From: Hydrogenophaga sp.
GTDB lineage: Bacteria > Pseudomonadota > Gammaproteobacteria > Burkholderiales > Burkholderiaceae_C
Reading direction: 5' to 3'
DNA length: 64,000 nucleotides
NCBI GenBank assembly: GCA_016741995.1
Contig: JACVCO010000004.1
Location: 124,001-188,000 of the forward strand
Shown: positions 1 to 34,831 of the stretch, piece by piece
How positions within the stretch are numbered: position 1 is the stretch's first letter
How the letters are laid out: each line of letters opens with the position of its first letter
The notes under the pieces: model-generated
What the model was told of the DNA's origin: nothing
Seen by the model: the letters and a program-made list of their open reading frames with translations, nothing else
Database searches by the model: none
Program-made: the position numbers and the translations under genes

Positions 1-47
1 GCCGGCAGTCGCGCCAGGCGAGCACCAGCTCGTGAAAGCTCAGTGGA
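1..47 (-). CDS. DGR reverse transcriptase, N-terminal fragment only (truncated by left window edge)
   Basis: Minus strand directly after the TR reads ...LSFHELVLAWRDCR, similar to the N-terminus of DGR-type RTs, and runs off the window; position after Avd and TR matches the usual Avd-TR-RT order. Start codon not determined. Confidence 0.55.
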
Positions 48-51
48 GTGG

Positions 52-156
52 AATCTGCGGACGAGCCGAACGCGGCCCTCGAACTTCTTGTCGTTGTTGT
101 TCTGGTTGCCGTTGTTGAAGTTCTGGTTCCAGGCGTTGTTCTCGGAGTACTGCGTG
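52..156 (-). repeat. DGR template repeat (TR)
   Basis: Coding-sense minus strand encodes TQYSENNAWNQNFNNGNQNNNDKKFEGRVRLVRR with ten AAC codons; near-identical to three VRs except mostly at A positions. Confidence 0.95.
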
Positions 157-327
157 TGCTCGCGCTATCCACGTCGCCCTGCCGGAGGCCTTGGCCGACC
201 AGCTGGGGGACTGCACCGGACCGCACCCGCCCGCTGGCGGGGGTCTCCGTGGTGTGCATGGCCGTGGCCTTGTGGGCCAGGGGCGCGACCAGATTCACAT
301 TGCGCACGGGCATGGGGGCCTTGACCG

Positions 328-690
328 TCATGCTGCAGGCGCCTTCGACTGAGACGATTTCAACCACCCGCCACCCTGCTTGCCGATGCTGTCGAGCAGC
401 TGCACCGAGTCGGACCACAGCTTGGGTGAGACGGCCTTCATGTCGAAGCCCACGCGCAGCAGCACGGTCGCTGCGCGCTGGCGCGCGAGCAGATCCCGGA
501 TGTGGGCCGCGCGCTCGTGGCCGCGCGTGGCGTTGGCCATGGCCATGAGGCTGACCATCTCGGTGCAGTGGGCGGTGATCTTCTCGCCCAGGTGGCGCTT
601 GTGCGCCCTGGGCATCTGCGTCTGCACGTTGAAGGCCAGCTGCACGAGGTCGCAGCCACGCTTGTAGATCGGCAACTCGGTGTGGAGCAT
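328..690 (-). CDS. avd: Avd-like DGR accessory protein (four-helix bundle)
   Basis: 120 aa MLHTELPIYKRGCDLVQLAFNVQ...LLRVGFDMKAVSPKLWSDSVQLLDSIGKQGGGWLKS; Avd-type C-terminal 'IGKQGGGW' and position between VR and TR. Confidence 0.85.
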   Translation of the reverse strand: MLHTELPIYKRGCDLVQLAFNVQTQMPRAHKRHLGEKITAHCTEMVSLMAMANATRGHERAAHIRDLLARQRAATVLLRVGFDMKAVSPKLWSDSVQLLDSIGKQGGGWLKSSQSKAPAA

Positions 691-718
691 CGGGGTGGTG
701 GCTTAAAGGATCAAAGGA

Positions 719-1225
719 TCAAAGCGGCAATCTGCGGACGAGCCGAACGCGGCCCTCGAACTCCTTGCCGTCGCTGAGCTGGTCGCCGTAGCCGAAGCCC
801 TGGCTCCAGGCGTGGTTCTCGGAGTACTGCGTGCTGGTCCAGTGCCACTTGCTGGTGTCGAAGTGCTCGCGCACGTGGGCGTACATCAGGGCCGACTCGA
901 AGCGCGTGGGCATGCGCGCGCCATCGGTGCGGCCCTCGCTGAGCTTCATGGCGCTGTCCCAGTCCAGGGCGCCCGGCTGCTCGGCCAGCAGCACCAGGTG
1001 CGCATCGGGCGCACCGGCTTCGCCGCGCGAGATGCCGGCGTAGACGCTGTTCTCGATGCCGGGCCAGGGTGCGCCGATCGCAGGGATGGCGGCGGGCGCC
1101 GCGGGCGCGGTGGATACCGGTTCGTCGGCGACGAAGCGTGGATCCAGTGATCGGTAGAGCGCGGCCATGATGGCCTGCGAACGGGGTGTGAGCTGCAGCT
1201 CAACGTCAACGGTGATGGCGGACAT
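719..1225 (-). CDS. DGR target protein 1 (C-type-lectin/DUF1566-like fold) carrying VR1
   Basis: Ends WTSTQYSENHAWSQGFGYGDQLSDGKEFEGRVRLVRRLPL; GGAGG Shine-Dalgarno ahead of ATG at 1225 (ORF track start at 1246 is an alternative). Confidence 0.88.
   Translation of the reverse strand: MSAITVDVELQLTPRSQAIMAALYRSLDPRFVADEPVSTAPAAPAAIPAIGAPWPGIENSVYAGISRGEAGAPDAHLVLLAEQPGALDWDSAMKLSEGRTDGARMPTRFESALMYAHVREHFDTSKWHWTSTQYSENHAWSQGFGYGDQLSDGKEFEGRVRLVRRLPL
729..833 (-). repeat. DGR variable repeat VR1
   Basis: 105-nt alignment to TR 52-156; 14 differences counted in the core, all at TR adenines (coding sense). Confidence 0.93.
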
Positions 1226-1259
1226 GTGCGTGCCTCCTGCGTTCAAGGGATTGAAGGAT

Positions 1260-1856
1260 TCAAGGATTGAGGTGAATCAAGCGGACGAGCCGAACGCGGC
1301 CCTCGAACTTCTTGTCGTCGTCGAGCTGGTAGCCGTAGTAGGAGAGCTGGCCCCAGGCGTAGTTCTCGGAGTACTGCGTGGACGACCAGTACCAAGCCTC
1401 ATCGAAGGCTTGCGGGCTGCCCTCGCGGAAGGCCTCAACGCTGGTCTGCACCGGCAGCGCTTCGGCGTAGGGGTAACCCACCGGCACGCTGCTGGGGTTG
1501 TCGCCGTCGCGGAAGCCGCCGTAGGTCTTGTAGCCGGTCGGCTTGAGGTGGCGGTAGCCGAGTTCGAGCACGTCGCGAGCGGGGATGCACCAGTCGCGGT
1601 GGCCACCGATCTCGCGATCGAGCGCCCAGGCGGCGATGGGGCTGCCGGCCGCGGCCATGGCGCGCGTGTTGTCCATGCTGTGCCAGCAGTTCGTGCCGGG
1701 CACGAGCTGGTACTCGGGCAGCCACATGCCTTCGGTTTCGCCGTCGGCTTTGGGCGCCCACACGACTGCCAGGCGCTTGGCGCCGCCGTGGCTCACGATT
1801 TGGCCGCCGTAGAAGCCGCCCTCGAAGGGTTGGCCGATGTCAGGAAGAGTGATCAT
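1260..1856 (-). CDS. DGR target protein 2 (DUF1566-like) carrying VR2
   Basis: MITLPDIGQPFEGGFYGGQIV...WYWSSTQYSENYAWGQLSYYGYQLDDDKKFEGRVRLVRLIHLNP. Confidence 0.88.
   Translation of the reverse strand: MITLPDIGQPFEGGFYGGQIVSHGGAKRLAVVWAPKADGETEGMWLPEYQLVPGTNCWHSMDNTRAMAAAGSPIAAWALDREIGGHRDWCIPARDVLELGYRHLKPTGYKTYGGFRDGDNPSSVPVGYPYAEALPVQTSVEAFREGSPQAFDEAWYWSSTQYSENYAWGQLSYYGYQLDDDKKFEGRVRLVRLIHLNP
1281..1380 (-). repeat. DGR variable repeat VR2
   Basis: 100-nt alignment to TR 57-156; 12 differences at TR adenines plus one T-to-C in a TTC codon. Confidence 0.92.
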
Positions 1857-2299
1857 GGTTTCTCGGGTGATTGAGGGGTGGAAGGGTGGGCCTCGGTCCA
1901 TGGCCCGCTGATGGAGCCGTGTTCGGAGATGAGGAGCCCGTACGGCGCTGTGAAATCCGTTCCGCACTTCGAGCAGGGCCACCGCACCATCCCGGTCTCG
2001 TCGTGCCGTTTCAGATCGATGCCGCGGAAGTGGTGATCGCAGAGGCACGCTTGCAGCGCGGGCTTGGAGGGAAGCCACAACCACTTGTAGACGCCGATGG
2101 CGCTGGTGACCGAGAAAATCGCGTGCTGCGCGGCCAGGTACCACATGCCGTGCACGGCGCCGAAGAAGATCCAGCCGCCGTTGCTCATGAGCCAGAGAAC
2201 CCACGCCCAGCCGGCCCAGCGCGACTGGAAGGCCAGCAGCAGGGCGCCGGTGATGCCCAGCGCGCCGGAGGCCAGTTCAAGGAAGTGCTGCGGGGTCAT
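1853..2299 (-). CDS. Small multi-TM protein with C-terminal CxxC motif (zinc-ribbon-like)
   Basis: MTPQHFLELASGALGITGALLLAFQSRWAGWAWVLWLMSNGGWIFFGAVHG... then CLCDHH...CSKCG; 4-nt overlap with the downstream gene. Confidence 0.6.
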   Translation of the reverse strand: MTPQHFLELASGALGITGALLLAFQSRWAGWAWVLWLMSNGGWIFFGAVHGMWYLAAQHAIFSVTSAIGVYKWLWLPSKPALQACLCDHHFRGIDLKRHDETGMVRWPCSKCGTDFTAPYGLLISEHGSISGPWTEAHPSTPQSPEKP

Positions 2300-2790
2300 A
2301 GGCTCATGACACCCACGTCGTGCGGCCGGCCCTTGCCGGCGAGGATGTCGCGGATCCGGCGCTCGGTCAGCGCGTGTGCCTGCAGCGCCTGGCGGTGCGA
2401 GATCGCGTCCAGCACCTCGGCGTAGTCCGCCAGCACCGCTCGCACGGCCCGAATGCCTGGCGCGTCCAGGCGCAACGCCATGCCGCCGAGATGGCGCCGT
2501 CCCGCGGCAGCCAGTGCGGTCACTGCGTCTTGCAGCAGACCTTGTGGGTCCTCGGCAAGTTGCATGGTGCACACCAGCGTCTCCATCAGGTTCACGGCGT
2601 CGCTGCACACGCGCCAGTCGTCGAGCGATGGCTGCGGGTCGCGCTCCAGCGCCGCCAGACCTTCCCACATGCGCGTGAGCTGGTGCCGCCGGCTCTCCGC
2701 TGGCATGGGCTCGCTGTCGCTGGCCATGAGCACGTCCAGCAGGCGGTAGGTCTGGGCGGGCGCGGTGCGCCTGGTGCGGCGGCGCTTCAT
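2296..2790 (-). CDS. Hypothetical phage protein
   Basis: ORF MKRRRTRRTAPAQTYRLLDVLMASDSEP...; short overlaps with both neighbours. Confidence 0.6.
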   Translation of the reverse strand: MKRRRTRRTAPAQTYRLLDVLMASDSEPMPAESRRHQLTRMWEGLAALERDPQPSLDDWRVCSDAVNLMETLVCTMQLAEDPQGLLQDAVTALAAAGRRHLGGMALRLDAPGIRAVRAVLADYAEVLDAISHRQALQAHALTERRIRDILAGKGRPHDVGVMSL

Positions 2791-3299
2791 TGGACCGTGG
2801 CCGGGTCGGCGCGCTGGAGCCACCCGTCTCGGCTGTCGCCGAGCCGGGCATCGAGTTGCGCCTCGGTCTCTGGCCAGACGTGCATGTCGTGTACCAGGCG
2901 TGTGTAGACGCCATGCCAGAAGAGTCGGATTCGCGGGTCTGGGTGCTTGTAGCCCACGATCTCCACTGCGTGCATGAAGTGCAGCTGGAAGTGGTGCGGG
3001 ATCGCGTCCAGATCGCGCAGGTACTGATGCACGTGCGCCTGCATGCGCTCTTCCCACGGCTCCAGCTCATCGTCTCCGCCGAGCGAGGGGCCGGTGAACG
3101 ATCCGCCATTGGGCTCGATCGGGTCGGGCAGCACGCGCCCATCCATGGCCGACAGCAGCACGCAGCGGCGATACCAACGCAGCAGCATCTTGATGGCGCC
3201 GTATTTCGGGAGGCCGTCGGGCCCACGGATCGCGGTGAGCAGCACGGTCTGCTGCATGAGAGGGATTCGGCCCACCCAGGCCTGCAGCACTGTGCTCAT
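2787..3299 (-). CDS. Hypothetical phage protein
   Basis: ORF MSTVLQAWVGRIPLMQQTVLLTAIRGPDG...; 4-nt overlaps with both neighbours. Confidence 0.6.
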   Translation of the reverse strand: MSTVLQAWVGRIPLMQQTVLLTAIRGPDGLPKYGAIKMLLRWYRRCVLLSAMDGRVLPDPIEPNGGSFTGPSLGGDDELEPWEERMQAHVHQYLRDLDAIPHHFQLHFMHAVEIVGYKHPDPRIRLFWHGVYTRLVHDMHVWPETEAQLDARLGDSRDGWLQRADPATVQ

Positions 3300-5239
3300 G
3301 CTACGTCCCCGATGGTCGATTCGTTGCCGGTGTCCCGGGCGAGGTCCTCGGCCACTTTGTCGCGCACGGCAAGCAGGTCGATCCCATAGGTGCTCAAAAC
3401 CGCCGTTGCGTCCTCGATGTGTGGGTAGGTGGTCAAGACCAACTCCAGCGAGGCCATGGCAATCAGCTGACCCAGTGCATCGGCGTCCATCGCCATGACC
3501 TTGTCGCGGGCCACGACCCAAACGTCCGGCGCGTCCCTGAACTCCTCTGTCCAGCCCATGTAGCCCTCAAGGCGCGGCAGCTCTTCGGACTCCAAGGGGT
3601 CCGCAAGCAAGGCGAGAGCGGTGCGGCGCAGCTCGTCCTCGTTGCGCTGGCCGGTGCGGATCAGGTCGAAAGCCGTGAAGAGCGCCGCGGTGCGCACGCC
3701 GCCTTCGCGCCAGGCCTTCTCCTCGGGCGGACACGTGTCCACCGCATGTGGCGGGCGGGCGGACTTGTCGGCGGGATGCTCTTCGTCATCGGGCGGCAGG
3801 AGCTTGTCCGCCAGCGAGTCCGGGATCACGTGCACGGCCTCGCAGGTGTAAGGGTCGATCAGCACGACGGGCTTGGGCGCCTTGCGGCCCATGCCTCGCA
3901 GTGCGTCGGCGAAGGTCTCCTCGCGCTCCTTCCCGTCATCACCGGTCACCACACGCGCAACATCGTCCACGCGCGTGTAGCCCGTGAGCAATTTGCTGTG
4001 CGGCGAGGGGCGTGCTGCGCTGGCCTCCTCCTCGCTGAGCACCTTCAGCCCCTCGGCTTTGGCCTTGCTGCGCACCACCGCCACGTGGGCCGCCTTCTTG
4101 GCGGCGAAGCAGCCCTCGTCGGTGCAGCTGTCCGTGGCGTGCTCGGCGTCTCCGAACAGGTCCTGCGCGGTGCTGGTGCGCTTGGGGCATCCGCTGCAGG
4201 CACCGGCCTCCGGCACCAGGCTGGCGTCCTCGATGTCGAACACCGCCTGGGCCAGTACCGTGTTGAAGCGCGTGTACAGTGCCTTGGCGATGTCCCGAAA
4301 CGGCGCGGGCTCCGCGTCCGCGCCCTTGCGCGCCACCGCCTGGCTTTTGATGTAGTCCACCACGGCGGCCTGGCGATCGGCCGGGTAGCGCGCCACCAGC
4401 AAGCCGGTGCTGCGGCCCAGGTGACCCTCGTACATCGCCTCGCGGCTCTCAGGCGTCAGGTCGAGCAGCTTCATGGTCTTTCGCACGTAGCTGGCGCCCT
4501 TGCCGCGGCCAATGCGGTCGGCGATCTGATCGACCGTGTAGCCGAGTCGCTCGCGCAGCAATGCGAAGCCCTCGGCCTCCTCCATCGGGTCGAGATCCTC
4601 GCGCTCGATGTTCTCGACGAGCTGGATCTCCAGCACCGCGGCGTCGTCCAGGTGGCGCACGAGCATGGGCATCACCATCAGCTCGGCCACCTGTGCCGCC
4701 CGCCAACGCCGCTCTCCCGCGATGATCTCGTAGGCGGGTCTCGGGTCCAGGTGGCTGGTCTCTGCGATGCGTGACGCCGGAAGCGGGCGGACGAGAATGG
4801 GCTGGGCGATGCCCTGTGCCCGAATGCTGGCAGCCAGGGCGTTGATGCTGTCCATGTCGAGCCCGCGCCGACGCCGAGGGTTGGTCGGACTGTTGATGGC
4901 CTGCAGCGGCCCGACCTCCACCAGTTCGGTGTGGTGCGCGCTCGCCGCGACCTGGGCCGGCGCCGGATCGGCCGCCGCCTGGCCGGCTTCCGGCTTCGCG
5001 ATCAGTTCCAGATCGTTGAGGTCGAAGACCTTGGTCTTCTTTCCGCCGATGGAAACGGTGTAGGCCCCGAGCGGGGTTTGCGCGGTAATCTCGCCGTACT
5101 TGCCAGCCCACATGTGCGGGCTGCCGCTCATCGCATCGGTGGCCTCCAGGCTGATGCGCACCTGCCGGCCGATCAGTGTTTCTGTGTCAGCGGCCGCAGA
5201 GGTGGCGCTCGCGTCCAGGTTGTTCTCGTCGTCAGACAT
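3296..5239 (-). CDS. ParB/RepB/Spo0J family protein
   Basis: 647 aa; AINSPTNPRRRRGLDMDSINALAASIRAQGIAQPILVRPL...YEIIAGERRWRAAQ...LVENIEREDLDPMEEAEGFALL... diagnostic of ParB N-terminal domain. Confidence 0.9.
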   Translation of the reverse strand: MSDDENNLDASATSAAADTETLIGRQVRISLEATDAMSGSPHMWAGKYGEITAQTPLGAYTVSIGGKKTKVFDLNDLELIAKPEAGQAAADPAPAQVAASAHHTELVEVGPLQAINSPTNPRRRRGLDMDSINALAASIRAQGIAQPILVRPLPASRIAETSHLDPRPAYEIIAGERRWRAAQVAELMVMPMLVRHLDDAAVLEIQLVENIEREDLDPMEEAEGFALLRERLGYTVDQIADRIGRGKGASYVRKTMKLLDLTPESREAMYEGHLGRSTGLLVARYPADRQAAVVDYIKSQAVARKGADAEPAPFRDIAKALYTRFNTVLAQAVFDIEDASLVPEAGACSGCPKRTSTAQDLFGDAEHATDSCTDEGCFAAKKAAHVAVVRSKAKAEGLKVLSEEEASAARPSPHSKLLTGYTRVDDVARVVTGDDGKEREETFADALRGMGRKAPKPVVLIDPYTCEAVHVIPDSLADKLLPPDDEEHPADKSARPPHAVDTCPPEEKAWREGGVRTAALFTAFDLIRTGQRNEDELRRTALALLADPLESEELPRLEGYMGWTEEFRDAPDVWVVARDKVMAMDADALGQLIAMASLELVLTTYPHIEDATAVLSTYGIDLLAVRDKVAEDLARDTGNESTIGDVA

Positions 5240-5660
5240 GGGTGATCTCTCCGGTGGTCGAGTGGGTGATGGGGGTGATGCGGCCGTCAGGCCAGTGCAG
5301 GCGATCGGCAACGCGGCTGGGCAGGCCGTATGCGTCCATCGCTCCGGGGCGCGAGCTGGGGACGAACAGCTCGGCGCCGAGGTAGTTGTTGGAGAGCCGG
5401 GCCGCCTTGAGTCGGTCCGCGTCCGAGCGCTGACGACGTAGTGCCTCGCCGCTGAGCTTGTTGCGCCCGCGCGGGGTGATGGAGTAGCGGATCTCTTTGG
5501 TGGTGTGGTCTGCGCTGATGTGACCCATCACGCGCAGGTTGCCGAGCGTGCTGACCGGCAGATCGCCAACGGCAGCCACGACCTCTGCGCGCGTGCACGC
5601 GCCATGGAAGCTCAGGTGACGCAGCACGTCGACCGTGATTTGTGCGAGGACGCCTCTCAT
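5232..5660 (-). CDS. Hypothetical protein, winged-helix-like N-terminus
   Basis: MRGVLAQITVDVLRHLSFHGACTRAEVVAAVGDLPVSTLGNLRVMGHISADH...YSITPRGRNKL; overlaps parB start. Confidence 0.5.
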   Translation of the reverse strand: MRGVLAQITVDVLRHLSFHGACTRAEVVAAVGDLPVSTLGNLRVMGHISADHTTKEIRYSITPRGRNKLSGEALRRQRSDADRLKAARLSNNYLGAELFVPSSRPGAMDAYGLPSRVADRLHWPDGRITPITHSTTGEITHV

Positions 5661-5992
5661 GCGTGCGCGGCCTCTTTGCGGGGATGCAAGCCGGTGACGG
5701 CCGCGAGGAAAGCGGCGTCGCTCTTGAATGCCTTGCGCGCGAGAAAGAAGATCACGGCTGGCCTGTCGAGCGGCGCGGCTTTGCAGAACTCCTCCTCCAG
5801 CCCCGGGATGAGTCGACGAAGGTCCACGCGAAGCACCTCGCCCTGGTGATGGACGTGGCGCTGCAGGGGGTCGTTGGTGGCCTGCTTGAGCCACAGGCGA
5901 GAGCCGTCGTGGAAGCACATCTCCAGCTTGGGCATCTGGAGCGTGGGGAAGGCCACTTCGGGCGTGGCCGAGGATGGGCGTAGCGAGACCAT
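5657..5992 (-). CDS. Hypothetical phage protein
   Basis: ORF MVSLRPSSATPEVAFPTLQMPKLEMCFHDG...; 4-nt overlap with the downstream ORF. Confidence 0.5.
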   Translation of the reverse strand: MVSLRPSSATPEVAFPTLQMPKLEMCFHDGSRLWLKQATNDPLQRHVHHQGEVLRVDLRRLIPGLEEEFCKAAPLDRPAVIFFLARKAFKSDAAFLAAVTGLHPRKEAAHA

Positions 5993-6025
5993 GTCGTTCC
6001 TTTGAACAGGGCTGCGAGGGAGGGG

Positions 6026-6313
6026 TCAGTCGTCGTCGCGGTCGCCGGCGGCGGCCCGCTTGCGGTCGATCCAGCCTGCGGCTGGTGTGCGAAACGCTGC
6101 AGCTGGTGCAGCGCAACGGGGCGTTGGCGCCGGTGTAGGCTTGCGTTGTTTGCTCGCGCTTCGCGCCAGCGTGCGCGCGTATCCGCGGATAAGGTGCGCG
6201 CGGGCCGGGTCTTTCATGGTCTCGGCCAAAGTGCCCGGCCATGCAGGGTGACGCAGAGCGCGCCACGCGGCCTCAAGGTGGTCCGACTCGGAATCGGCCG
6301 GGTTCGCGCCCAT
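6026..6313 (-). CDS. Hypothetical phage protein
   Basis: Minus-strand ORF MGANPADSESDHLEAAWRALRHPAWPGTLAETMKDPARAHLIRGYAR... Confidence 0.4.
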   Translation of the reverse strand: MGANPADSESDHLEAAWRALRHPAWPGTLAETMKDPARAHLIRGYARTLARSASKQRKPTPAPTPRCAAPAAAFRTPAAGWIDRKRAAAGDRDDD

Positions 6314-6317
6314 GGCA

Positions 6318-6527
6318 TCAGCTCACCCACCGCCGCCACAGGTGCACGGCAAGCATCAGGCAGCCGCCGAGCACTACCACCAGGTAGATCACCCAGAAGG
6401 CCACGGTTTCTGGCGGAAGCGGTTTGATGCGCCCGTCTGACGGAGCATCAGCATGGCCTTCGTTCGCGGCTCGGCGTTGCGCGGCCAGGTGCTCTACGTC
6501 AACGCGATGCAGGTTGGTCGGCTCCAT
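6318..6527 (-). CDS. Small membrane protein
   Basis: MEPTNLHRVDVEHLAAQRRAANEGHADAPSDGRIKPLPPETVAFWVIYLVVVLGGCLMLAVHLW; one predicted TM segment. Confidence 0.45.
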   Translation of the reverse strand: MEPTNLHRVDVEHLAAQRRAANEGHADAPSDGRIKPLPPETVAFWVIYLVVVLGGCLMLAVHLWRRWVS

Positions 6528-6769
6528 CAGCAGAGCCTCCACAGCGGTGCGAGGGCACGGCGCCAAGCCGCCGCGGCATGCGCGGTGCGATCGTCGAGCA
6601 GCGCGGTTTGCAGCCTGTCGGCTTCCTTACCCAGCTCGCGCGGCGCGGGCTTGATGTGGCAGCGGCCGATGACCACCTTGCCCGTGTCGACGCAGGTCCG
6701 GCCGGCAACTGGCACCTCGTCCCAGATCCGCCTCGCGCTGGCGGTGCCCTCGGATTCGCCCGCGCTCAT
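6527..6769 (-). CDS. Hypothetical phage protein
   Basis: ORF MSAGESEGTASARRIWDEVPVAGRTC...; short overlaps with both neighbours. Confidence 0.45.
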   Translation of the reverse strand: MSAGESEGTASARRIWDEVPVAGRTCVDTGKVVIGRCHIKPAPRELGKEADRLQTALLDDRTAHAAAAWRRALAPLWRLC

Positions 6770-6984
6770 GGCAGGAACTCCGCACGGAGCGTCGAGCGCG
6801 GCGACAGCTTGCTGAGCACCGAAATGGCCTCGGTCTCCGTGATGCCCCAGTCGGGCTCGGTGAGCGCAAAGCCATCGTCCTGGCCAAACTGCTCACGCAG
6901 GGCCTTGCGAGCATCGCGGTCGTTGAGTTCGGTGGCCTCAATGGCCTGTGTAGCGGTGCTGCGGTTCCAGGGGAAGATGCTCAT
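6766..6984 (-). CDS. Hypothetical phage protein
   Basis: ORF MSIFPWNRSTATQAIEATELNDRDARKALREQFGQDDG...; 4-nt overlaps. Confidence 0.5.
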   Translation of the reverse strand: MSIFPWNRSTATQAIEATELNDRDARKALREQFGQDDGFALTEPDWGITETEAISVLSKLSPRSTLRAEFLP

Positions 6985-7286
6985 TGCTGGGCCCCCTTGA
7001 GCACCGTGGTGCCGGGCCAGCAGAAGAGCAGCTGGCCGCGTTCGGCAACGACCTTCGTATCGTCTTCTGCGGCGCGGCGGAACAAGACGATCGCGCTGCG
7101 CACTGCCTTGCAATAGGGGGTGCCATCCTTGATCTGGCAGAACTTGTCGAAGAGGACCTCGCGGTGGCGGTCGCTTTCGAGTGCTCCTGAGAGGAATCCG
7201 AGGTAGCCGTACACCGGGTGGCTCTCGGTGTCGTCGATAGGCGCTGTCAACGCCTCGATGGTGGTGGTGATGACGCCGCCCTTCAT
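6981..7286 (-). CDS. Hypothetical phage protein
   Basis: ORF MKGGVITTTIEALTAPIDDTESHPVYGYLGFLSG...; 4-nt overlaps with both neighbours. Confidence 0.55.
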   Translation of the reverse strand: MKGGVITTTIEALTAPIDDTESHPVYGYLGFLSGALESDRHREVLFDKFCQIKDGTPYCKAVRSAIVLFRRAAEDDTKVVAERGQLLFCWPGTTVLKGAQQ

Positions 7287-7801
7287 GCCGCCACCTCGCC
7301 CGAAGCATTGAAGGACTGAAGCAGCAATCTGCGGACGAGCCGGACCCGGCCCTCGAACTTCTTGACGTGGCTGCCCTGGCCGCCGCTGCCGAAGTTCTGG
7401 AGCCAGGCGCCGTCCTCGGAGTACTGCGTGCTGGTCCAGGCCCAGCCGCCACCGATCTGCTCTTTCAGCGTGGCAAAGAGCTGCAGCGCCTCGATGCGCG
7501 AGGGCAGGTAGAGCTCACCCTCCAGCGCCAGGATGTCTTTGCCGAGCTTGGAGCCCGACGCGGCCATGGCCTGCGTGTTGGCCAGGCCGTCGTGCAGGTT
7601 CGTCGCCTTGGTGTTGCCGTACTTGCCGCTCCAGGCGCGCAGGCCCAACTGGTCGAAGCCATCGGGCAGCAGCAGCGCGAAGACGCGGCCATCAGCGTAG
7701 GCGACAGGTCCGGCGTACCAGGCGGATTGGTCGGGCCAGTACTGGCCTGGTGTGGGTGGTTGCACACCCTGCTGGGCTGCAACCAAGGCTGCTTCGCGCA
7801 T
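7283..7801 (-). CDS. DGR target protein 3 carrying VR3
   Basis: MREAALVAAQQGVQPPTPGQYWPDQSAWYAGPVAYADGRVFALLLPDGF...WTSTQYSEDGAWLQNFGSGGQGSHVKKFEGRVRLVRRLLLQ; GGAGG upstream of ATG. Confidence 0.88.
   Translation of the reverse strand: MREAALVAAQQGVQPPTPGQYWPDQSAWYAGPVAYADGRVFALLLPDGFDQLGLRAWSGKYGNTKATNLHDGLANTQAMAASGSKLGKDILALEGELYLPSRIEALQLFATLKEQIGGGWAWTSTQYSEDGAWLQNFGSGGQGSHVKKFEGRVRLVRRLLLQSFNASGEVAA
7326..7430 (-). repeat. DGR variable repeat VR3
   Basis: 105-nt alignment to TR; 15 differences at TR adenines, plus two non-A differences in the GC-rich 3' flank. Confidence 0.92.
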
Positions 7802-7836: not shown

Positions 7837-7865
7837 ATACTACGTATTGTGGTCATGCTTGTCAA
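7837..7865 (-). promoter_or_regulatory. Candidate sigma70 promoter of the DGR-containing gene series
   Basis: Minus strand TTGACA-N17-TAGTAT (-35 at 7860-7865, -10 at 7837-7842), ~30 nt upstream of target 3 ATG. Confidence 0.75.
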
Positions 7866-7920: not shown

Positions 7921-8370
7921 TCAGGGTGTTCCCAACCGATGTAGCAGGGGGTGGCTGGTGCCGGGAACAACGCTGCGAATGTTGGTGCCACCAGGCTGGA
8001 AGAGAACAAGGTACGGCTTGAATCCAACATAGCCGCCGTAGGAGTTCTTGGCATTTACCTCAATCGGGACCAGATAGCCAATCCAACGGATGCCGCCGCC
8101 CTGGATGAGCGCTTCGTTTCCGTAGGCCCGCTCCGGCTTCCCAATGCGGTACCTGGCGCTCTCCGGATCTTTAAGGGTTTGCTCAAAGTGCGCTCGAATC
8201 AAGTCTTCGTGGGTGCTGGGTGGGGCCCCGAAATCCGCATTCGCTGGAAGTGGCGCAAACATCCCGCTTGTGGCGCAACCAGTCATCACGAGCGTCGCGG
8301 AGGCCAGCATGAGCCAGGCCAGAGCAGCTCGTGCCCTATGGATCAATCGTCCCGCGCAGTTTGAAGACAT
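7921..8370 (-). CDS. Putative lipoprotein
   Basis: N-terminal hydrophobic stretch and lipobox: ALAWLMLASATLVMTGCATSG. Confidence 0.6.
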   Translation of the reverse strand: MSSNCAGRLIHRARAALAWLMLASATLVMTGCATSGMFAPLPANADFGAPPSTHEDLIRAHFEQTLKDPESARYRIGKPERAYGNEALIQGGGIRWIGYLVPIEVNAKNSYGGYVGFKPYLVLFQPGGTNIRSVVPGTSHPLLHRLGTP

Positions 8371-8393
8371 AGATCTTTGCCCCTTCCTGTTGC

Positions 8394-8789
8394 TTAACCG
8401 ACGGTTCCGTTGCGCGGGCCGCCGTGGCTTTTTTCAGGCGAAGACCCATTGGGGGCCACCGCATCGATCATGGCCTCAATGGCGTCCCAGAAGGTGTGGG
8501 GGATCTCGTGCGCTCGTTCGAGCCGAATCATTCGCTGTAAGGCGGCCTTGCTTTCGGCAGATAGTCCATCCACGGTGTCCTCTGGCGCTATTCCATGAGT
8601 AATCCAGGTGCGAGGCACCTCCAACTTGTCAGCAATCCGGTTGATGTCCTCTAGTGAGGGCTGCCGCGAGCCGGCGAGCCAATGCTGAAGCCCGCCTTGA
8701 GTCATCTCAAGCTGGGCGGAGAGGGCGTCCTGGGTAACCCCAAGCTGCTTCATGCGAGCTTTTGCCCTGTCTCTCCACGTCTTTTCCAT
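8394..8789 (-). CDS. XRE/Cro-CI family repressor
   Basis: MEKTWRDRAKARMKQLGVTQDALSAQLEMTQGGLQHWLAGSRQPSLEDINRIADKLEV: HTH_3-type motif; divergent from the cro-like gene. Confidence 0.75.
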   Translation of the reverse strand: MEKTWRDRAKARMKQLGVTQDALSAQLEMTQGGLQHWLAGSRQPSLEDINRIADKLEVPRTWITHGIAPEDTVDGLSAESKAALQRMIRLERAHEIPHTFWDAIEAMIDAVAPNGSSPEKSHGGPRNGTVG

Positions 8790-8827
8790 CGGAAAAGTGT
8801 GGCCGGCCCACCCACAAAACGGAATCG

Positions 8828-8839
8828 ACAATACGTTGT
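8828..8839. promoter_or_regulatory. Candidate operator ACAA-TACG-TTGT in repressor/cro intergenic region
   Basis: Dyad shared with 7867-7878. Confidence 0.5.
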
Positions 8840-8883
8840 GAGGCGACTTGCCACCACACTCTGTAGTACACCATAATGTGGTC

Positions 8884-9126
8884 ATGAGATTACGCGACTA
8901 CCTTCAGAAGCACCGCCTCACCCAGGCCGCGTTTGGACAGCGCCTCCATCCCCCAGTGACCCAGGGGAAGGTCAACCACTGGATCAACGGGACGCGCCGC
9001 GTGAGCCTGGCGGAAGCGCTTCAGATTGAGGCGGTTACGGGTGGCGAAGTTAGCCCGGCAGATCTCGTCCGCCTGGATTCGGCTCATGCGCACGAGCCAA
9101 GTGGCTCGCCACGCGCTACCTGTTGA
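8884..9126 (+). CDS. Cro/YdaS-like HTH regulator
   Basis: MRLRDYLQKHRLTQAAFGQRLHPPVTQGKVNHWINGTRRVSLAEALQIEAVTGG. Confidence 0.75.
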   Translation: MRLRDYLQKHRLTQAAFGQRLHPPVTQGKVNHWINGTRRVSLAEALQIEAVTGGEVSPADLVRLDSAHAHEPSGSPRATC

Positions 9127-9202
9127 TCTGTTGGCTCGCATCCAAAAATTTTGGCCGCGCGAGCCTCTCAACACCGCACAACGAATTTGAGAGGCACTGG
9201 AA

Positions 9203-9571
9203 ATGCACCAGGTATCCATCCCCGTCCCGGTTGCTCCCCATGAGGTGAGCCGCAAGACTTCGCTCGGCGGCGCAATTGATTTGTGCCTGGAGATCGGGGG
9301 CAAAGAGCCCAAGGAAGTGCAGCACGCGCTGAAACTCGACAAGGCCCAGTTCAGCCGGTGGCAGTCAGGCCAGGAAGGCGTGATCTGGCCGCGCCTGTGT
9401 GGGGTGATGGACCACTGCGGAAATGACGCGCCGCTGCTCTGGATGAACCACTCCCGTGGCTACGACCTGTATGCCATGCGCAAGGTCGAGACCGAGCTGG
9501 AGCGAGAGAACCGCGAGCTGCGTGAGCAGAACATGGCCCTTCTGCAGGTCATTCGAGGCGCCAAGGTCTGA
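9203..9571 (+). CDS. CII-like / HTH phage regulator
   Basis: MHQVSIPVPVAPHEVSRKTSLGGAIDLCLEIGGKEPKEVQHALKLDKAQFSRWQSGQEG; first gene before replication genes. Confidence 0.55.
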   Translation: MHQVSIPVPVAPHEVSRKTSLGGAIDLCLEIGGKEPKEVQHALKLDKAQFSRWQSGQEGVIWPRLCGVMDHCGNDAPLLWMNHSRGYDLYAMRKVETELERENRELREQNMALLQVIRGAKV

Positions 9572-10584
9572 TGGACAACGTTCACCAGGTGCTCCACCAG
9601 ATGATGGAGTTCGGCATCGAGCTGCGCGACAAAGACAGTCGGCGCTTTCCGGTGCTGAGCAGGCGCACCACGTGCGGCGCCGGCGGCAAGTACTGGTACA
9701 AGCTCTACGAGTTCCGGCCTCGTGCGGGGGGCCGCTTCCTGGTGGGCTCTTTCGGCAGCTACCGCTCGGGCAAGGCCGAGAAGGTGGAGGTCGACTGGAA
9801 GCCGCTGGGAGAGGCCGAGCGCGAGCGTTTTCGAGCCGAACGCGAGGCCGCACGGAAGCGCGAGGCGGAAGCTCGCGCTGAGGAGGCCAGGCAAGCCGCC
9901 ATGAGTGCCGCCGACCTGTGGGCCTCGGGCGCGCGCGCCGGCACATCGGCCTACCTGGCCAGCAAGGGCGTGGCGGGCGAGTCCTGCCGCTACCTGCCCG
10001 ACGGCTCGCTGCTTGTGCCGCTGTTGCGATACGACATGCCGCGCGAGCAGGCGCTGCGCGCCGTGCAGCGCATCTATCCGGCACCGCGGAAGCACCCCCG
10101 CACGGGCGAGGCGTTGCCGCAGAAGGTCTTCACCAAGGGCTTCGCTAAGACAGGATGCAGTGTGCGACTGGGCGAGATCGCTTCAGACGCGCCCCTGCTC
10201 ATCGTGTGCGAGGGCTACGCGACAGGCCTGTCGATCCGCGCCGCGATCGAGCAGCGCTGGCCCGTGTTCGTGGCGCTCGACGCCTACAACCTGGCCCCCG
10301 TGGTCGAGCTGCTGCACCGGCTGTATCCGCAGACCTTCATCCTGATTTGTGCCGATGACGACTGGCTGACCGCCGACCACCAGGGGCCGAACCCCGGGCG
10401 ACGCGCAGCGCGCGTGGCGGCCAAGCAGGCCAACGAGTGCGAGATCGTCTGGCCGGTGTTCGCCGCGGCCACGCGAGCGCCCAAAGACACCGACTTCAAC
10501 GACCTGCATCAGCGTGAGGGGCTGCCTGTCGTGCAGCGTCAGCTGCAGCGCGTCGTGGGTTTGATTCTGGAGTTGATGGATTGA
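9571..10584 (+). CDS. Toprim-domain phage primase
   Basis: ...LIVCEGYATGLSIRAAIEQRWPVFVALDAYNLAPVVELL...ICADDDW: toprim motifs (EGYAT, ADDD). Confidence 0.85.
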   Translation: MDNVHQVLHQMMEFGIELRDKDSRRFPVLSRRTTCGAGGKYWYKLYEFRPRAGGRFLVGSFGSYRSGKAEKVEVDWKPLGEAERERFRAEREAARKREAEARAEEARQAAMSAADLWASGARAGTSAYLASKGVAGESCRYLPDGSLLVPLLRYDMPREQALRAVQRIYPAPRKHPRTGEALPQKVFTKGFAKTGCSVRLGEIASDAPLLIVCEGYATGLSIRAAIEQRWPVFVALDAYNLAPVVELLHRLYPQTFILICADDDWLTADHQGPNPGRRAARVAAKQANECEIVWPVFAAATRAPKDTDFNDLHQREGLPVVQRQLQRVVGLILELMD

Positions 10585-34781: not shown

Positions 34782-34826
34782 CTACGAACCAAGGGGTCGT
34801 GGGTTCGAATCCTGCCAGCCGCGCCA
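34782..34826 (+). other. tRNA-Arg(ACG) 3'-half fragment, prophage attachment site (attR-like)
   Basis: CTACGAACCAAGGGGTCGTGGGTTCGAATCCTGCCAGCCGCGCCA = anticodon loop to CCA; no 5' half precedes it. Confidence 0.85.
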
Positions 34827-34831
34827 CAATG

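Follow-up and report, generated by a model that had tools for sequence, protein, structure and literature searches.

The locus described here raises the question of whether one short repeat that recurs at the ends of several phage genes marks a complete diversity-generating retroelement (DGR) and, if so, how its template is recognized and where its products act. Here, we use the window, meaning the whole 64,000-nucleotide stretch of DNA that was analysed, together with the sequence adjoining it and related phages, to argue that the element is in all likelihood a DGR with all its parts, belonging to a temperate tailed phage, with present-day retrohoming activity inferred.

Parts of the element and its prophage

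The reverse transcriptase (RT) lies on the minus strand at C23:122955-124034 (C23 being the contig), immediately left of the window, where the earlier note had expected it. The parts of the element are as follows.

1..331, minus strand: 5' portion of the RT open reading frame; the rest extends beyond the left edge of the window as far as C23:122955, for a total of about 458 aa
52..156, minus strand: template repeat (TR), 105 nt with 34 A and ten AAC codons in the target frame
328..690, minus strand: avd, accessory variability determinant, 120 aa, Pfam bAvd PF22296 at 42.9 bits (cut-off 40)
719..1225, minus strand: target gene 1, encoding a small protein of Lcl_C type (168 aa) whose C-terminus holds VR1
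729..833, minus strand: variable repeat VR1, 14 differences from the TR, 14/14 on template A
1260..1856, minus strand: target gene 2, encoding a protein of Lcl_C type (198 aa) whose C-terminus holds VR2
1281..1380, minus strand: VR2, 13 differences from the TR, 12/13 on template A
7283..7801, minus strand: target gene 3, encoding a protein of Lcl_C type (172 aa) that holds VR3; distal, about 6 kb from targets 1 and 2
7326..7430, minus strand: VR3, 17 differences from the TR, 15/17 on template A

The RT carries the motifs LPIGNLSSQFF, which includes the DGR-type IGNLSSQ, and YVRYVDD, and it matches PF00078 (53.2 bits) and the PHROG 1423 reverse transcriptase family (E 2.5e-105). The avd product also matches PHROG 3206, 'Avd protein of DGR' (E 6.6e-23), and scores 47 bits with the NCBIfam model DivGenRetAVD, under its cut-off of 80. 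Taken by itself, the DGR adds another example to a thoroughly studied class: an RT of the type with SQ replacing SP, TR-VR differences lying almost entirely at template A, Avd, which most DGRs have, and VRs at the C-termini of lectin-like targets are all present.

The element sits in a prophage of approximately 40 kb inserted in a tRNA-Arg gene. That it belongs to a prophage, as the earlier note also recognized, is borne out by genes for integrase, terminase, portal, capsid and tape measure, together with attachment repeats in the tRNA gene. Its targets lie in a leftward early operon, between a repressor at its head and an integrase at its end, and the tail genes at 23-32 kb (plus strand) hold no VR. 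The landmarks of this setting are the following.

7837..7865, minus strand: promoter-like site TTGACA-17-TAGTAT, 10/12 match, just upstream of target gene 3 (two such sites found against 0.9 expected by chance, which is weak evidence)
8394..8885, minus strand: CI-like transcriptional repressor, head of the leftward operon, PHROG 4 (E 9.2e-13)
34782..34827, plus strand: right attachment site, where 46 bp or more from the 3' half of tRNA-Arg(acg), at C23:118731-118807, are directly repeated

Divergence at template adenines

That the TR recurs at the 3' ends of three genes, as had been read from the letters alone, was upheld, as was the count of its AAC codons. BLAST against the whole assembly returned four copies, namely the TR itself and the three VRs, each VR encoding the C-terminus of a target. 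Compared position by position, VR1 is changed at 14/34 template A and 0/71 other positions (Fisher p=1.5e-8), VR2 at 12/32 and 1/68 (p=2.2e-6) and VR3 at 15/34 and 2/71 (p=2.9e-7). The hand counts for VR1 and VR2 thus agree with ours, and the 15/15 claimed for VR3 had overlooked two changes outside A, a C to G and a T to C, both near its 3' end. A dead DGR, made of chance or decayed repeats, could be read into the one non-A change of VR2 and the two of VR3, found in a host genome that is 82% complete, yet RT, avd and each of the three targets keep an uninterrupted frame, every one of the only four repeat copies genome-wide is in its expected place and the A bias of each VR is strong (p = 1.5e-8 to 2.2e-6), so that we regard this reading as barely credible; a chance origin of the repeats is excluded by the bias together with the placement of the four copies.

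The same bias was found between relatives, as the earlier note would have it: across 27 disjoint pairs of related prophages with the same TR, the VRs differ at 423/875 A sites and at 17/1924 other sites, the latter figure being somewhat low by design, as only few non-A changes pass the VR finder. For the same reason, the pooled figure of 1297/1317 A-site differences in relatives is no test, since the finder itself restricts other changes. Relatives with an identical TR and near-identical flanks have VRs that differ almost only at template A, and one pair of related loci (L075 and L076) does so in all three VR classes. Judged from sequence, this divergence between near-identical relatives lends indirect support to mutagenic retrohoming. 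The possession of three targets for one template had been considered notable; it is not remarkable, given that 28.6% of 948 DGRs carry multiple VRs (PMC6642488) and that two or three are typical of the relatives. Among the approximately 80 relatives listed, a pair of adjacent VRs is the rule, and the third, distal VR recurs.

A structured RNA abuts the template

Directly 5' of the TR lies a structured RNA.

153..344, minus strand: RT-15 structured RNA (Rfam RF03018), scoring 161.3 bits where the gathering threshold is 82

The match is full-length (positions 1-192 of 192), and its 3' end abuts the 5' end of the TR. The fold is supported by covariation in 39 of 56 pairs and by paired cells at 92.2%, compared with 34-39% when slid, a level matched by 0/500 shuffles. 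RT-15 was found in 8/8 loci tested starting from the RT, in the phages Magia, Haboob and QDWS and in the genomes of four relatives. Starting from the RNA instead, a pattern scan of viral contigs gave at least 80 loci; an RT lies downstream in 73 of the 74 listed loci whose downstream sequence reaches 700 nt or more, and a TR with a VR follows directly in 72 of the 80 matches listed. Wherever measurable, the end motif of RT-15 and the TR start are 3-10 nt apart (14 in one VR pair), save in one shortened match, and this adjacency is kept in two loci (L031 and L040) where genes lie between TR and RT. A class-wide genome search, filtered more strictly and covering a single genome from each species, returned the window's own copy only.

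On the other side of the template, we found neither an RNA element nor any covarying pair, and the 5' codons of the RT show no suppression of synonymous-site change. Among the in-frame representatives described below, only 16-40 nt separate the end motif of the TR from the RT core, which leaves no evident room for a 3' spacer. RT-15 is most likely the landing site for RT and Avd and the barrier that ends cDNA at the 5' boundary of the TR. The Rfam entry, of which the window RNA is a full-length, above-threshold member, has a name that gives no function, and the TR directly 3' of it and the probable role in a DGR are added by the present analysis; an earlier publication may have made this link. 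A family named only for its nearness to RT genes is now tied to a DGR template by position, co-occurrence and covariation.

The template lies within the reverse transcriptase frame

The RT frame, too, runs across the TR, which there would encode part of the RT N-terminus. This frame begins with an ATG at 331-329 that shares bases with the avd stop (ATGA), and it stays open from there through RT-15 and the TR into the RT core. Among relatives, the RT-frame start overlaps the avd stop exactly in 26 of 49 representatives and lies near it in 39 of 49. The spacer from the TR end to the RT core has nine lengths between 16 and 40 nt, all 1 mod 3, in 43 of 45 anchored representatives; none of these 43 has a stop in the RT frame of the spacer, whereas the +2 frame is stopped in 20 representatives. 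ATG, GTG and TTG are absent from the spacer in 39 of the 43, and the two out-of-frame representatives have their own ATG. In a subgroup typified by L042, a stop at -99 means that the RT would start inside the TR. We dropped the RT-15-to-RT distance modulo three as evidence on frame, and only the spacer between TR and RT is informative, because the target frame already holds length changes of the TR in threes.

The codon-position bias ratio is 1.20 upstream of the TR and 1.04 within it, against 2.69 in the RT core. This weak signal suggests that there is hardly any selection on the N-terminal extension at the protein level and that conservation there is mainly at the RNA level, so the case for the frame is built from stop codons, the lengths of the spacer and the overlap at ATGA. 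The weak signal is also what would be expected if a non-standard start codon downstream of the TR were used for RT translation, with the TR non-coding and the open frame incidental to G+C-rich sequence, and annotators of Haboob and QDWS did place the beginning of the RT no earlier than the RT match. Nevertheless, the retention of one unstopped frame over nine spacer lengths beside a +2 frame often interrupted, the lack of start codons in most in-frame spacers, the ATG of the two representatives that lost the frame, and the overlap with avd make such a late start quite improbable.

Target proteins and where they may act

The AlphaFold model of target 2 has a mean pLDDT of 93.2. The best solved relative of the targets is the C-terminal domain of Legionella Lcl (8q4e), with a profile E of 3.6e-10 and a fold match of probability 1.00 (TM 0.67 on the shorter chain), and we regard the targets as kin of the DUF1566/Lcl_C family by profile and predicted fold, not by Pfam score, Lcl_C PF07603 reaching 20.2-26.1 bits under a curated cut-off of 34.9. 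An NCBIfam search gave no name for them.

The most probable mechanism is one in which a leftward transcript through avd and RT would carry both the RT-15 RNA and the TR, with translation of the RT presumably beginning on the avd stop codon, so that in this lineage the template would lie inside the coding sequence of the RT itself. RT and Avd would most likely land on RT-15, copy the TR to cDNA while misreading template adenines and stop at the TR 5' boundary, after which the cDNA would take the place of the 3'-terminal VR in all three target genes. The targets, small and soluble-looking predicted Lcl_C-fold proteins from the early operon, several per phage, would equip each lineage with a number of separately diversified surfaces for binding, which probably do their work in the lysogen or infected cell and not as tail fibres. 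Taken as a whole, the reading that the RT uses its own mRNA as mutagenesis template, with a translated TR, RT-15 on its 5' side without a 3' spacer, priming that must then differ from that of BPP-1 and several targets acting inside the cell and not in host attachment, is one that we put forward tentatively, as a possibility short of even odds.

The remaining alternatives concern the targets. This could be an ordinary phage DGR whose small targets are receptor-binding proteins added to the tail tip, setting host range as in BPP-1: phage DGR clades 1, 4 and 6 aim mostly at tail proteins (PMC8144416), the authors describing Magia proposed a change of host range (PMC7883833), structural neighbours of the targets among viral proteins include tail fibres, a collagen-repeat protein and a peptidase S74 protein, and the solved relative is a trimeric adhesin domain. 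We consider it rather unlikely, as the target operons of the window, Magia, Haboob and Cruim01 run between integrase and repressor on the strand opposite to the structural genes, and targets here and in relatives, at about 120-240 aa, have no recognizable part for tail attachment and usually occur as several diverse copies per phage. Display on, or secretion from, the lysogen, altering its surface in adhesion or superinfection exclusion, for example, would suit an operon beside the repressor and a family whose members are often surface adhesins (PMC11162425, PMC6642488); however, by inspection, the three window targets have no hydrophobic N-terminal signal and no lipobox, and we hold this to be improbable. 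The phage DGRs of this lineage aim at sets of small early-operon proteins, a class of target that the tail-fibre picture leaves unexplained.

Comparison with known systems

Legionella Lcl shares the fold of the targets at only 17% sequence identity, and is a secreted collagen-like adhesin that is no DGR target. The closest parallels are phages. In Burkholderia phage Magia (MT701587; PMC7883833), the RT belongs to the same clade (62% identity) and RT-15, Avd and the integrase-repressor operon are shared; two short lectin-fold targets are annotated (genes 47 and 57), where the present scan finds three VRs. Magia differs in being a myophage with baseplate genes and in its host, and its paper does not discuss RT-15 or a TR inside the RT frame. 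The Pseudomonas phages Cruim01 and Haboob, which are otherwise different phages, have RTs 62-64% identical to that of the window and share the four-helix/Avd gene, the small targets and the early operon; the Cruim01 record itself annotates RT-15, and a literature search on the DGRs of these two phages found no paper. A survey (PMC3521204) noted TRs overlapping the RT reading frame, as in the window, on the basis of annotated ORFs only, with no frame test and no RNA element.

With the Bordetella phage BPP-1 (mtd/avd/TR/brt), the element shares the order target-avd-TR-RT, Avd, a DGR-type RT and A-specific VR divergence at the target C-terminus. The likeness to mtd drawn by the earlier note holds for that divergence and fails for location, as the targets here are three early-operon genes and not one gene of the tail module. 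The window also has its TR inside the RT frame, no structured spacer RNA between TR and RT and no target in the structural module. In BPP-1 and BalMu-1, the structured RNA is 3' of the TR (in a BPP-1-type phage used as control, vB_BbrP_003, Rfam RF03022 Phage_DGR sits there), whereas in the window RT-15 is 5' of it. The tie between RT-15 and TR thus spans a large lineage of proteobacterial temperate phages on the opposite side of the template, and, since cDNA synthesis in the BPP-1 model is primed from the 3' spacer (PMC12875486), for which this lineage has no evident room, its cDNA may be primed in another way.

The retroelement and its prophage setting

That the element is a diversity-generating retroelement (DGR) is close to certain. 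One template repeat (TR) and three variable repeats (VRs), as the earlier note had read them, were located at the following positions, each VR at the 3′ end of a target gene, together with the associated features.

Features of the element (window coordinates unless stated)
52-156, minus strand: TR
153-344, minus strand: RT-15 structured RNA (Rfam RF03018; cmscan 161.3 bits), ending at the TR 5′ end
331-329, minus strand: ATG opening the reverse transcriptase (RT) frame, overlapping the avd stop codon (330-328)
328-690: avd (accessory variability determinant)
729-833, 1281-1380 and 7326-7430, minus strand: VR1, VR2 and VR3, of targets 1, 2 and 3
8394-8885: CI-like repressor, start point of the leftward operon
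Contig C23, 122955-124034, minus strand: RT, directly left of the window, which covers C23 124001-188000 (PF00078, 53.2 bits; PHROG reverse transcriptase, E 2.5e-105)

Searched by BLAST against the whole assembly, the TR matched only itself and the three VRs, and no VR lies in the tail region. Compared position by position with the TR, VR1 differs at 14 sites, all at template adenines, VR2 at 13 (12 at adenines) and VR3 at 17 (15 at adenines), a bias that lies far beyond chance (Fisher p = 1.5e-8 to 2.2e-6). The counts made earlier by hand were right for VR1 and VR2, while the 15/15 claimed for VR3 had overlooked two non-adenine changes close to its 3′ end. The RT, predicted to lie left of position 1, is indeed there and carries both the IGNLSSQ and YVDD motifs.

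Leftward from the repressor, the operon runs through target 3, small genes, a ParB-like protein, targets 2 and 1, avd, the TR and the RT, continuing beyond the window with a helicase-methylase, a small gene and a tyrosine integrase; the rightward genes encode terminase, portal, capsid/protease, tape measure, tail protein and endolysin. The prophage spans about 40 kb and is bounded by a direct repeat, at least 46 bp long, that corresponds to the 3′ part of tRNA-Arg(acg). The ParB-like protein of this early operon (3296-5239, between targets 2 and 3) has PRTRC_parB as its best NCBIfam match, below that model's cut-off. In stretch L006 (16325-18958), an 877-aa protein just downstream of the RT fuses a DNA-helicase match to a DNA-methyltransferase match.

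Relatives and probable continuing diversification

Searching IMG/VR with the RT gave 375 relatives, from the best 80 of which one representative per 90% RT identity was taken (n=49). In the stretches examined, most representatives carry a pair of VRs close to the RT, with three VRs in eight representatives and five in one; by these counts, a pair of adjacent targets is standard and the distal target recurs. This agrees with the literature, in which more than one VR is reported for 28.6% of 948 DGRs and DUF1566 is the most frequent target label (PMC6642488).

The adenine bias expected between related genomes was also seen: across 27 disjoint pairs of related loci sharing the same TR, with flanks up to 99% identical, VRs differ at 423/875 adenine sites vs 17/1924 other sites, the latter figure being affected by the VR finder, which restricts non-adenine changes. 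Two such loci, L075 and L076, differ at 18 adenine sites in the proximal VR, 17 in the middle one and 19 in the distal one, each VR also showing one non-adenine change. These differences support continuing, independent diversification of all three VR classes, though the finder limits non-adenine changes.

The target proteins

The three targets share PHROG 4245 (function unknown) and resemble Lcl_C weakly, with scores under the Pfam cut-off. A profile built from 55 sequences matched the Legionella Lcl C-terminal domain (PMC11162425) with E 3.6e-10, and the same domain was the best PDB match of an AlphaFold target model (mean pLDDT 93.2), whose viral matches were DUF1566 and tail-fibre-like proteins. 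Inspection revealed no signal peptide in the window targets. In phages Magia, Haboob and Cruim01, as in the window prophage, the targets lie in the integrase-repressor operon. They may be binding proteins that work inside the infected cell or the lysogen, a reading we favour over a role in tail attachment.

Phages Medea1 and Aurca01 retain two targets at the same operon place (8268-9576 in both L097 and L098, positioned as in Cruim01), with no RT annotated there and no RT-15 match in these stretches, and so targets can persist without the DGR machinery. Cruim01, with the full module, and Aurca01, without it, infect the same Pseudomonas syringae strain and form a natural presence/absence pair.

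The RT-15 RNA and the template

RT-15 was the single cmscan match in the region. In 41 relatives, 92.2% of cells are paired, vs 34-39% in slid versions, with both-sided changes in 39/56 pairs, a level that 0/500 shuffles reach; the structure is thus strongly supported in relatives. RT-15 was present in 8/8 RT-first loci tested, in Magia, Haboob and QDWS, and in four genomes of relatives. A reverse scan, using a DNA pattern built from RT-15 alone and demanding no RT, gave at least 80 loci, sampling the same lineage since the pattern derives from the RT-first set; among the matches listed, an RT of the same type is found in 73/74 having at least 700 nt downstream, and a TR with a VR immediately after RT-15 in 72/80. 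Two of these loci depart from the pattern: in L128, RT-15, Avd and VRs are present, with no RT match within 8 kb downstream, and in L178 the RT match (44% identity) begins 691 nt downstream and no VR was found.

In loci L031 and L040 a gene intervenes between TR and RT, yet the TR stays 3-9 nt from the RT-15 end, which argues that the TR travels with RT-15 and not with the RT. The intervening genes look by eye reductase-like (L031:9168-9932) and methyltransferase-like (L040:9135-9974, in one frame with the TR). Position and co-occurrence strongly support the view that RT-15 belongs to the DGR RNA; its function there is inferred.

Probable translation of the RT through the template

From the TR end motif to the RT core, a single frame is kept in 43/45 anchored representatives over nine different lengths; these 43 have no RT-frame stop in that stretch, and 39 of them no ATG, GTG or TTG. 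The two out-of-frame representatives each have their own ATG. An RT-frame start codon overlaps the avd stop exactly in 26/49 representatives and lies near it in 39/49. In one subgroup, a stop lies 99 nt before the RT core and the RT would begin at an ATG within the TR. The codon-position signal of the N-terminal RT part is weak, as expected if selection sees RNA and not protein. That the RT is translated through the TR is well supported rather than proven.

Comparison with known DGRs

An overlap of TR and RT frame is not unique to the RT-15 lineage, since DiGReF already lists TR overlap with annotated RT ORFs as a structural group (PMC3521204) and the TR likewise lies within the annotated RT ORF in VP58.5 (L221) and phiARM81mr (L222), whose RT group differs. 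Neither of these DGRs gave an Rfam match; in VP58.5 the avd/RT overlap is 4 nt.

On the 3′ side of the TR, the RT-15 lineage has only 16-40 nt between TR end motif and RT core (in-frame representatives), and neither covarying pairs in this area nor synonymous-site suppression in the first RT codons were found. In alignment A3, GCAGAT at the TR 3′ end (columns 25-30) is complementary to ATYTGY within the RT coding sequence some 180 nt further along (columns 208-213) in nearly all representatives; it lacks changes on both sides and could be chance.

In BPP-1, the 3′ spacer brings in RT and Avd and also serves to prime cDNA (PMC12875486). A Bordetella phage of this type carries the Rfam Phage_DGR RNA (RF03022; L217:2813-2945) 3′ of the TR, and BalMu-1 carries RT-14 (RF02921; L218:2777-2920) on the same side, a position from which RT-14 is probably also a DGR RNA, whereas in the window lineage RT-15 lies 5′ of the TR.
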